Below, piece after piece: positions 4,841 to 35,972 of a stretch of 64,000 bases of DNA. Numbering within the stretch: the first letter of the stretch is position 1; the number at the start of each line of letters is the position of its first letter. Under the pieces are notes generated by a model. The model ran no database searches and was not told the DNA's origin. It saw nothing but the letters and a program-made list of their open reading frames with translations. The position numbers and the translations under genes were made by a program. Source of the DNA: Caldilineales bacterium (GTDB lineage: Bacteria > Chloroflexota > Anaerolineae > J102); the NCBI GenBank assembly GCA_019695115.1, contig JAIBAP010000022.1:1-64000 (forward strand), read 5' to 3'.

Positions 4841-4961
4841 TGTCATTGCGAGGGGCGACAGCCGTCCTGAACGCAGTGAAGGAAGCAATCCCCAAATCGC
4901 ATCAGAAAGTTGGGGATTGCTTACTTCGCTTCACTCAGTACCCTACGGCCTCGCAATGACA
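4841..4961. repeat. 121-bp REP-like inverted repeat
   Basis: The element begins with TGTCATTGCGAGG and ends with CCTCGCAATGACA. Inside, GAAGCAATCCCCAA is mirrored by TTGGGGATTGCTTA, and a 24-bp CTGAACGCAGTGAAGGA-type element sits in each arm. It is a long imperfect palindrome upstream of xylB. A related half-element encodes the C terminus of the ABC ATPase at 10.5 kb. Confidence 0.9.
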
Positions 4962-13719: not shown

Positions 13720-13814
13720 GGCTGATGCTGTAGCGGTGACAGGATGACGTGCGACTTGCGATCCTTCGTTTCACTCAGAGCCTGCCCTGAGCGGAGCGAA
13801 GGGACAAGCTCCGA

Positions 13815-30406: not shown

Positions 30407-30474
30407 GCCATCAACTGACGACTGCAATCCGGTGCAGCGGGAGGCGGTGCTACAACTGCCGGCGACCACCAATC

Positions 30475-30659
30475 ATGAAGAGAACACAACTCGTCAAGCA
30501 TCTGAGAACGCACGGAGCGATCTTGGTCAGAGAAGGCAGAAGGCATAGCATCTTTGAAAAAAAAGCGACCGTAAGACCCAAGTGCTGCGCCATAGCGAGA
30601 TCGTCGATGAGTTAGCACGCAAGATCTGCAAGGACCTTGACGTACCATTTGTGAGGTGA
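30475..30659 (+). pseudogene. hicA: hicA with reading frame shift at an A8 run (copy 1)
   Basis: Frame 0 encodes MKRTQLVKHLRTHGAILVRE and GRRHSIFEKK, then runs out at a stop at 30613. From the eight adenines at 30557-30564, the -1 frame continues as SDRKTQVLRHSEIVDELARK and ICKDLDVPF up to a stop at 30657-30659, which completes a normal HicA of about 61 residues. Codon phasing makes A_AAA_AAA, a classic -1 slippery heptamer. The copy at 33.66 kb has the identical run. It may be a pseudogene or a toxin made by programmed frameshifting or transcriptional slippage. Confidence 0.8.
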
Positions 30660-30662
30660 GCG

Positions 30663-30878
30663 ATGAAATATCGGGCTGTTATCAAACAAAGCAATGGCTG
30701 GTGGATTGGCTGGCTGGTAGATTTGCCAGGCGTCAACGCCCAGGAGAAAACGCAGGATGAGTTGATCGAATCGCTGCGCATCGGGGCCGAAGACATGCTG
30801 GCAGCGGCGGTGTCGTTCGAGGCTCAGGCCACCATGACGCTGATCGATGTTCCTGCACCCGTGTGGGCGGGTCCTTGA
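30663..30878 (+). CDS. hicB: HicB family antitoxin (copy 1)
   Basis: This 71-residue protein begins MKYRAVIKQSNGWWIGWLVD, the typical HicB N-terminal strand pair, and continues with the helix TQDELIESLRIGAEDMLAAA. It starts 3 bp after the end of the -1-frame hicA. It is intact, so the antitoxin would be made even if the toxin is not. Confidence 0.85.
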   Translation: MKYRAVIKQSNGWWIGWLVDLPGVNAQEKTQDELIESLRIGAEDMLAAAVSFEAQATMTLIDVPAPVWAGP

Positions 30879-30971
30879 GCCGGCCCACCAACAGGCGCCT
30901 TGTGGCAGGTCCGGCTAACACACCCATGGTTGATGCAGCCATTCTGACGGCTGTACCAAATGATCTCGTCG

Positions 30972-31188
30972 GCCTGACCCCAACCAATTCTGGCGCCACG
31001 AGCGCGTCGTCGTCACTGGCGGCAGCGGCCGCTTTGCGTCGGCTCTTGCGTGGTGGACAAGCTGCGGCAGCGGGGCGCCGCCGACATCACATTCGCTTCG
31101 CTCAGTGCAGGCTTCATAAGCTGGCTCTTGGAAAACAGCTTTCGTCAGGCGCTCCAGGGACGAACCCGAATCACAAAGGAAATTGACA
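30972..31188 (+). pseudogene. N-terminal fragment of an fcl-like epimerase gene
   Basis: From about 30985 the sequence resembles the start of the intact fcl at 35045: it can be read as FWRHERVVVTGGSGRF, matching the [15 protein letters not shown] region, but with frame breaks. A CTTCGCTCAGTGCAGGC-type 24-bp element lies at about 31089-31112. There is no complete gene in this gap. A ribosome site AAAGGA at 31176 belongs to the next gene. Confidence 0.6.
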
Positions 31189-31620: not shown

Positions 31621-31726
31621 GGTGCAGGAGGTCTTGCTAAGACCCAGGATCATGAAGCTGCGCCACTCCACGGAGACTGATGTCGAGGCTTACATGGCGG
31701 GCATTGTTGCTGTGGTTCACCATTGA
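31484..31726 (+). pseudogene. truncated PIN-domain toxin
   Basis: The frame starts MTVAVVIDTSVWISAFLNPE, the canonical PIN-domain start with the first catalytic aspartate, and includes the second acidic region LPLLDEVQEVLLRP. It ends at about 80 residues, whereas such toxins have about 130-145, so the last metal-binding aspartates are missing. Twelve bases after the stop a gmd fragment begins, so the truncation was probably caused by that junction. Confidence 0.7.
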
Positions 31727-31737
31727 CCATTCTCCGC

Positions 31738-32060
31738 ATGACTGAAAAAGCCCTCATCACCGGCATCACCGGTCAGGACGGCTCCTATTCTTCGGCTGCG
31801 CTCAGTACAAGCCTGACGGAGTTCTTGCTGTCCAAAGGCTACGAGGTGCACGGCATCATCCGCCGCGCCAGCACGTTTATTGACACCCTTCGGCTCTGCT
31901 CAGGGCAGGCTCTGCGGTGCAGTACTGGCGCAACACCTGCCGCCTGGACCACATCTACCGCGACCCGCACAACGGCGACCAGATGCGGATGCGGCTGCAC
32001 TACGGCGACATTGGCGGCGCGTTCGAAACACGTCCTCCCTGGATGCAGCCGTCGGCGCCG
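31738..32060 (+). pseudogene. gmd: gmd (GDP-mannose 4,6-dehydratase) N-terminal fragment with small insertions
   Basis: The segment reads [17 protein letters not shown], then a 24-bp CTTCGGCTGCGCTCAG-type insertion (31789-31812), then [21 protein letters not shown] second insertion with CCCTTCGGCTCTGCTCAGG follows near 31887. In a shifted frame [13 protein letters not shown] and RLHYGDI then complete the expected N-terminal third of Gmd. The rest is absent. It indicates that a GDP-fucose or GDP-6-deoxymannose pathway once lay here complete. Confidence 0.8.
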
Positions 32061-32079
32061 CAGGTGCGTAAGCGAATGT

Positions 32080-32160
32080 GAGGATCAGCAGCAAGGATAT
32101 GTTGGAGGCCATCGCCCGCCTGACCGGGTGCAAGGCCGGCCTCTGGGCGTTGAAGAATGT
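32080..32160 (+). pseudogene. fcl C-terminal fragment
   Basis: A short frame reads [20 protein letters not shown], closely matching [19 protein letters not shown] in the intact fcl at 35.77 kb. It ends abruptly. Together with the gmd fragment it is a remnant of a gmd-fcl unit. Confidence 0.6.
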
Positions 32161-32193
32161 CTCTTTCGAGATGCCGCAAAGAACCAGCTGAGG

Positions 32194-32229
32194 TTGCTAT
32201 AGACATAGCAAGCGTAGGCACGGTATAAT
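32194..32229 (+). promoter_or_regulatory. inverted repeat and TATAAT box upstream of an unknown two-gene operon
   Basis: TTGCTAT (32194-32200) and ATAGCAA (32205-32211) form a perfect 7-bp inverted repeat with a 4-nt spacer. A TATAAT hexamer follows at 32224-32229. The repeat covers the expected -35 position, as operators of autoregulated modules often do. The ATG at 32231 is very close to the -10 box, so the true translation start may lie further downstream. Confidence 0.5.
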
Positions 32230-33109: not shown

Positions 33110-33524
33110 ATGACTAAAGGCCGAGGGCATTCTTCCTTCGACTGCACTCAGGACAAGGCTGGCGACGGAGCGCTACAACCAGAGCGACCCGGTCAACCCT
33201 TCGACCGGGCTCAGGGCAAGCCTCGGCAGCGCGTTCGAGACATGTCCTGAGCGCAGCCGAAGGATCAGCATCAAAGATTTGACGGAGACCATCGCCTGAC
33301 TGACCGACCCTTCGGCGTCGCTCAGGATAAACTTCGAGGGGCGCATCGTGTGGGATACATCCAAGCCCAACCCTTCGTCAGGCTCAGGACAGGCGGCCAG
33401 CCGCGGCGCAAGCCCTGTCCTGAGTGCAACGAAGGATGGACGTCAACCGGGCGCGGGAGTGGTTTGGGTTCGAGAGCCAGACGCGGTTCAAGGAAGGGCT
33501 GCGGCGGACGATTGCGTGGTATTT
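33110..33524 (+). pseudogene. fcl: fcl 3' fragment carrying six 23-24-bp insertions
   Basis: Compared with the intact fcl at 35.70-35.96 kb, this fragment is collinear over about 260 bp but is interrupted six times, at about 33132, 33197, 33241, 33307, 33371 and 33412. Each insert is 23-24 bp of the CCCTTCGNC-CTCAGG-CA type in either orientation. The rest still reads like fcl ([20 protein letters not shown] in another frame, FESQTRFKEGLRRTI). It is a decayed paralog. About 130 bp after it hold no gene. Confidence 0.88.
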
Positions 33525-33658
33525 AACAGTTGGCACGACTCATGGCTAACTACCATGAGTTGGCCAGCAAGGCATCAGATTCGCCAACTCATACAGGCAA
33601 CGATGGCACAGTCTGCTCTCAATCTATGCCCTTTTCGTTCACTGGCTGACCACCAATC

Positions 33659-33843
33659 ATGAAGAGAACACAACTCATCAAGCATCTGAGATCGCATGGG
33701 GCCGTTTTGATCAGAGAAGGCAGAAGGCATAGCATCTTTGAAAAAAAAGCGACCGTAAGACCCAAGTGCTGCGCCATAGCAAGATCGTCGATGAGTTAGC
33801 ACGCAAGATCTGCAAGGACCTTGACGTACCATTTGTGAGGTGA
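33659..33843 (+). pseudogene. hicA: hicA with the same A8 frame shift (copy 2)
   Basis: Identical architecture to copy 1: frame 0 from 33659 to the A8 run at 33741-33748, then the conserved HicA C terminus in the -1 frame, ending at 33841-33843. The two copies differ at several bases, including Glu to Lys after RHS, but the A8 run and the -1 frame are preserved. Confidence 0.8.
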
Positions 33844-33846
33844 GCG

Positions 33847-34062
33847 ATGAAATATCGGGCTGTTATCAAACAAAGCAATGGCTGGTGGATTGGCTGGCTG
33901 GTAGATTTGCCAGGCGTCAACGCCCAGGAGAAAACGCAGGATGAGTTGATCGAATCGCTGCGCATCGGGGCCGAAGACATGCTGGCAACGGCGGTGTCGT
34001 TCGAGGCTCAGGCCACCATGACGCTGATCGATGTTCCTGCACCCGTGTGGGCGGGTCCTTGA
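33847..34062 (+). CDS. hicB: HicB family antitoxin (copy 2)
   Basis: This 71-residue protein differs from copy 1 only at one visible residue (Ala to Thr near position 50). It starts 3 bp after the end of the -1-frame hicA. The 238 bp after it contain the shared downstream segment to 34155 and a GCAGGGAGCCAAACA word repeated at 34700, without a gene. Confidence 0.85.
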   Translation: MKYRAVIKQSNGWWIGWLVDLPGVNAQEKTQDELIESLRIGAEDMLATAVSFEAQATMTLIDVPAPVWAGP

Positions 34063-34300
34063 GCCGGCCCACCAACAGGCGCCTTGTGACAATTCCGGCG
34101 AACACGCCCATGGTTGATGCAGCCATTCTGAAAGCTGTGCCGAATGATTTCGTCGTGGCGCGAGGGGCAGGCTGGCAGGGAGCCAAACAGTGAGTGACAG
34201 GCGCAGTTTTTCCCAATTATGTGTGGTCAGGGCACACTGACGTGCGTCTCAACGGCGCGACAGCCAAGTTTTTGTGTGCGAAGCATTCAAGAGGCATATC

Positions 34301-34726: not shown

Positions 34727-35972
<1,246 letters not shown>

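Follow-up and report, generated by a model that had tools for sequence, protein, structure and literature searches.

We propose that six short inserts in a decayed fragment of fcl, the gene for GDP-fucose synthase, each represent one unit of a mobile hairpin repeat of very small size that would be moved in trans, as folded single-stranded DNA, by an enzyme encoded away from its copies, and we assign this interpretation a probability of roughly 55%. The stretch of DNA analysed (the window) consists of positions 1-64000 of contig 22 of the draft genome of an uncultured Chloroflexota bacterium (5.99 Mb in 135 contigs). The features of the fcl locus are as follows.

34983..35972, + strand: intact fcl free of inserts, the pre-insertion reference (329-aa ORF and alignment)
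33110..33524, + strand: decayed 3' part of fcl, host of the six inserts (collinear with intact fcl at 35690-35970)
33134..33157, + strand: insert 1, 24 bp, loop ACTGCA, tag ACAAG, boundaries unambiguous
33197..33220, + strand: insert 2, 24 bp, loop ACCGGG, tag GCAAG, 1-nt boundary ambiguity
33241..33264, − strand: insert 3, 24 bp, loop GCTGCG, tag ACATG, same sequence also present in other genera of the family
33308..33331, + strand: insert 4, 24 bp, loop GCGTCG, tag ATAAA (a different tag subclass)
33371..33393, + strand: insert 5, 23 bp, loop TCAGG, tag ACAGG
33414..33436, − strand: insert 6, 23 bp, loop TTGCA, tag ACAGG, boundaries unambiguous

MAFFT alignment of 33110-33524 with 35690-35970 revealed six gaps (24, 24, 24, 24, 23 and 23 nt) as the sole breaks in otherwise collinear sequence, with 86% identity over the best-conserved collinear stretch, in agreement with the six discrete inserts of 23-24 bp reported in a preliminary description of this DNA. 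Each gap contains CCTTCG-N5/6-CTCAGG and a short tag, with CCTTCG..CTCAGG on the + strand in four inserts and on the − strand in two, so the common pattern in both orientations claimed there also holds. The claim that most inserts keep the reading frame is correct as to length, but two measure 23 bp, and what is left of the gene is non-coding. Each insert has its nearest relative outside the fcl fragment, and insert 3 matches copies in other genera over 26 nt, which upholds the view that these are independent insertions. Tandem expansion as their source is ruled out by the diversity of the inserts and the presence of both orientations.

The preliminary description assigned the inserts to decayed fcl. 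Six are indeed there, but a neighbouring remnant, which we take to be gmd from its sequence, contains at least two more copies; the region struck is therefore gmd-fcl and not fcl alone.

31723..32202, + strand: decayed gmd remnant (ORF start recognisable, then degenerate)
31788..31811, + strand: decayed element copy TTCTTCGGCTGCGCTCAGTACAAG inside the gmd remnant, read directly
31886..31909, + strand: element copy inside the gmd remnant, loop GCTCTG, tag GCAGG

The first of these copies presumably interrupts the conserved Gmd stretch GQDGSY|L(A/T)EFL. Copy density reaches ~20 per kb in the fcl part, compared with a genome average of about one per 39 kb, and the clustering in gmd-fcl far exceeds what relaxed selection alone would yield. 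As a comparable cluster of seven copies in 1 kb is found in apparently intergenic DNA elsewhere (G090 contig 1, 85.7-86.7 kb), clustering may be a property of the element. The seven copies of that cluster (L470/L482, in a genome of 1.8 Mb) all differ, and most of them bear GCGAACG, which forms a second class of tag on the same hairpin core. The decayed gmd-fcl stretch is bracketed by a 508-bp direct duplication (30464-30971 and 33648-34155, 96% identical) that contains a HicB-like short ORF. Additional short fcl-like remnants at 30971-31063 and 32083-32127 (74% and 82% identity to intact fcl) suggest that the region was rearranged repeatedly.

The window contains 8 strict CCTTCGN3-6CTCAGG matches, against 0.09 expected from shuffles, and in the host genome the core matches 152 times and its reversed control twice. 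The RCARG tag is present in 128 host-genome copies (control, 0); some of the strict core matches without it are due to chance. Confinement of the 24-mer to the fcl fragment, raised earlier as a possible refutation, was checked across the genome and is not observed: the fcl inserts are confirmed members of a repeat family that is dispersed. Of 201 Chloroflexota genomes, 47 contain tag-bearing copies and none yields a control match, and congeners differ more than 10-fold in core matches (152, 13 and 2). Exact tag-bearing copies outside the Chloroflexota were found, among the matches listed, in more than 10 other phyla, including Bacteroidota, Acidobacteriota, Cyanobacteria, Pseudomonadota, Desulfobacterota, Myxococcota, Nitrospirota, Planctomycetota, Kiritimatiellota, Patescibacteria and others, as well as in viral contigs, where 108 stretches have a match. 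Relaxed core matches at public-genome and viral loci number 147 and 165, anchoring matches included, against 0 and 0 for the control. Copies in the viral contigs (L149-L256) share those contigs with phage-like structural genes, as judged by eye, and the element may therefore travel on phages. In G061 (L396, L399, L402, L411 and L414) we identified a burst of longer near-identical repeats around the core CCTTCGCTTCGCTCAGG, whose tag, GTGACA, represents a third tag class.

Comparing sites with and without a copy between paralogs, among congeneric genomes and among Planktothrix plasmids defines the unit as Y-CCTTCG-N5/6-CTCAGG-RCARG, 23 bp long with a 5-nt centre and 24 bp with a 6-nt centre. Tested in this way at orthologous and paralogous loci, the proposal that the inserts are true insertions was borne out, and no target duplication was found at the unambiguous sites fcl 1, fcl 6 and Planktothrix p5. 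Loci L002 and L091 each contain 24 bp in the host genome that are missing from relatives, and the paralogs L020 and L112 differ by two inserts, one of 24 bp and one of 27 bp; for the copy common to both paralogs, we did not find a clean empty ortholog. L011 is a strict match but was ruled out as an insert. In a Planktothrix agardhii plasmid, CCTGTCCTGAGCGGAGTCGAAGGG lies between CGGTAGC and TAGTTTC, at a site that is empty in other plasmids of the species, and an AAA-ATPase gene contains a second 24-bp unit plus 9 further bases. The ends are the same in both phyla at the three unambiguous junctions. Centre lengths of 5, 6 and 9 nt occur, with occasional 1-nt variation at junctions. Across 125 copies from more than 10 phyla, flanking positions hold at most ~0.15 bit of information, except for a preference on the right for C (84%) and then T (53%); to the left of the Y base, information is near zero. 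CT lies within 1 nt of the right (3') junction in 10 of 13 events (fcl, relatives, paralogs, Planktothrix and the decayed gmd copy), against ~12% expected, although some of these junctions are ambiguous by 1-2 nt. The tally is thus not exact, and the target preference for CT is suggestive.

The opposite strand, 5'-CYTGY-CCT-GA-GY-NNN-RC-GA-AGG-R-3', forms a short hairpin that contains tandem G.A mismatches and closes with a triloop. After an outer stem of 4 bp (Y-C-C-T) come the tandem G.A mismatch, a further 2 bp and the loop of 3 nt, and the short tag is unpaired on the 5' side of this strand. Folding energies calculated with standard DNA parameters, which poorly reflect sheared G.A pairs and triloops, were about -1 kcal/mol or none, no better than shuffles. 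As folding energy failed as proof, we relied on covariation. Pairs 1-19, 7-13 and 8-12 covary (T-A/C-G, G-C/A-T and C-G/T-A) among 34 distinct host-genome copies with a 5-nt centre; the search pattern dictates the remaining three pairs, which are hence uninformative. Paired cells amount to 95.6%, compared with 88.0% in shuffled data (0/500), two-sided changes number 28 versus 11, and controls with slid partners, at most 57% paired, destroy the signal. Among fully complementary hairpins in the fetched parts of the host genome, the internal mismatch TC/TC, which is a tandem G.A mismatch on the opposite strand, ranks first of 144 combinations (96 against a median of 18.5), jointly with its reverse complement GA/GA. 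A GNA triloop is present in 37 of 65 and 55 of 115 copies with a six-nt centre. The covariation shows the predicted structure, a hairpin with a tandem G.A core and a triloop. In other phyla C.A is frequent at the −1/+1 pair, a point against our interpretation. Diverged copies CCTTCACTGTGTTCAGG / CCTTCACTGCGTTCAGG at 1230-1246, 1578-1594 and 4866-4882 (−) have the inner G-C replaced by A-T, with changes on both sides.

Judged from its sequence, the element works like a REP, but it departs from described families in the features tested, namely tag, stem and linkage to RAYT. The literature searched contained no relevant match to its literal strings. Miniature inverted-repeat elements (MITEs) are 70-300 bp long, carry terminal inverted repeats and usually duplicate their target. 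They resemble the element as non-autonomous dispersed insertions, but differ in all three properties (23-24 bp here; junctions fcl 1, fcl 6 and Planktothrix p5). The GC clusters of yeast mitochondrial DNA are likewise very small hairpin inserts that favour a short target and whose mechanism of mobility is not known; they are unrelated in sequence and compartment. GTAG REPs are also short, tagged, dispersed hairpins with inverted pairs. However, GT[AG]G is absent from the 5' foot of the present element (23-24 bp, 128-152 copies), whose hairpin strand starts with CYTGY, and GTAG REPs flank a RAYT gene within about 1 kb, whereas our element has no flanking RAYT at the loci examined and is present in genomes with no Y1 hit. 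The Rickettsia palindromic elements reviewed are ~150 bp long and were described in Rickettsia (PMC10969869); they share in-frame insertion into genes, in contrast to the small size and many phyla found here. The CGTC-tagged REP superfamily (Di Nocera et al. 2013) includes Neisseria dRS3 and Rickettsia RPE-4 and RPE-6, and has stems of 8-9 bp that almost always start with A-T pairs; its repeats are listed from five phyla, Chloroflexota not among them (PMC3733652). Like our element, these REPs are small hairpins that bear an unpaired tag; they too occur in several phyla, at times within genes, and lack a dedicated transposase. The CGTC stem of 8-9 bp with a loop of 4-5 nt differs from the arrangement here, where the tandem G.A separates 4 bp from 2 bp and the loop has 3 nt. 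The unpaired CGTC tag, often TGTC, can also be CCTC; our hairpin strand often reads C[CT]TGTC, but the last bases of this stretch lie within the stem. Because the CGTC stem rule does not hold, we did not file the element as a CGTC REP. The earlier suggestion that nothing so small was known is not supported, as REPs of 20-40 bp are a described class, RPE-4 and RPE-6 are short CGTC-type REPs, and intragenic REPs have been described too (PMC3733652). Thus short REPs, in-frame insertions and transposase-less (CGTC) REPs have already been described; unusual here are the precise insertion units, the sharing across phyla and the six-fold hit on a pseudogene.

Alternatively, the element may be an ordinary REP family whose RAYT (a Y1 HUH transposase) is encoded elsewhere or was lost from many genomes, an explanation that we consider unlikely. 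The size, hairpin, unpaired tag, inverted REPIN-like composites and intragenic copies are all as in REPs, the host genome encodes three Y1 (PF01797) genes, and Y1 is somewhat commoner in genomes with at least five tag-bearing copies (17 of 33, tallied by hand) than in the others (about 62 of 168). Against this, none of the three host genes is bracketed by copies, and the Y1 loci examined have none bracketing them, only a lone copy 307 nt from one ORF end. A home-made profile detected no Y1 gene near copies in 228 loci, and no family stands out as a common neighbour in 120 genome loci. We detected no PF01797 in 16 of the 33 carriers, including one 100% and one 99% complete genome and several that are 97-100% complete, although draft genomes and profile thresholds allow missed genes. 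Genomes rich in Y1 (18, 11, 9 and 8 genes) have no tag-bearing copy, and the GTAG tag is absent. Given the carriers without a Y1 hit and the several copy-free Y1-rich genomes, the data do not require RAYT; together with the lack of flanking, they leave Y1/RAYT unsupported as an obligate partner.

Spread without any transposase, in which the hairpin is copied during replication or repair by template switching or hairpin priming at micro-homology, ranks after the RAYT explanation and is improbable. It would accommodate the lack of a dedicated gene near copies, the extremely small unit, the wide phyletic spread, the occasional 1-nt junction variation and the different centre lengths. However, the preference for CT and the fact that the ends stay constant between unrelated phyla point to a sequence-specific enzyme, and targets share at most 1-2 nt with the copy. 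It is very unlikely that the copies are selected functional sites, such as a terminator, mRNA stabiliser, or binding or uptake signal, spread by recombination. Intergenic positions are common among the copies, some of which form tandem arrays of 37-38 bp, and conservation across phyla is strong, but six copies lie in a dead gene and others within reading frames, orientation and centre vary freely, and copy numbers differ widely among congeners. An assembly or alignment artefact, or ancestral sequence lost from intact fcl, is hardly credible: the genome is a draft known here from sequence only, but the six inserts differ in sequence, copies occur in plasmids of isolates and are absent from orthologs and congeners, and controls gave 0.

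The interpretation as a mobile hairpin combines insertion, unit length, ends and structure, all read from the DNA, with a single-stranded intermediate and an enzyme that we infer. The unit would move in trans as folded single-stranded DNA, with cutting and joining next to an AG/CT dinucleotide, and the acting enzyme would be a host or mobile ssDNA-processing enzyme encoded away from the element. The gmd-fcl region would have accumulated at least eight copies and kept them because a pseudogene is free to retain them, and in working genes only frame-keeping copies (24 or 27 bp) would survive. More speculatively, and with considerable doubt, there may be a pan-bacterial superfamily of ~24-bp hairpins with a constant TC/TC (G.A) core and exchangeable stem and tag, which inserts precisely at AG/CT in chromosomes, plasmids and phages through an unrecognised non-Y1 activity across phyla. 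How transposase-less REP-like repeats spread is an open question (PMC3733652). It becomes directly testable with this element, because the unit is near base-exact, empty sites are known, unrelated phyla share the unit, and genomes with and without the suspected enzyme are available. The element also carries a warning, as short peptides encoded by inserts occur within predicted proteins of many bacteria.

Within long ORFs from three data sets, the CCTTCG strand is coding in 89 copies and template in 30, and none of the 30 template-strand copies is in the phase that reads TGA (opposite-orientation phase 1). Five of the six frames through a typical insert are open, and 24-bp copies can therefore persist in genes. 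Copy orientation relative to local GC skew gave no informative signal. One copy in the window lies within another.

13781..13803, − strand: copy inverted inside a second copy (composite, REPIN-like pair), recurring at about a dozen host-genome loci

Given this recurrence, composites may move as a unit, as REPINs do. The composite inverted pair (52 bp) is also found at L009, L027, L028, L083, L100, L103, L105 and L106. The host genome further contains intergenic tandem arrays (L093, 5617-5750; L096, 10095-10223), in which each repeat of 37-38 bp consists of one element and 7-bp ACCTGCC-type repeats.
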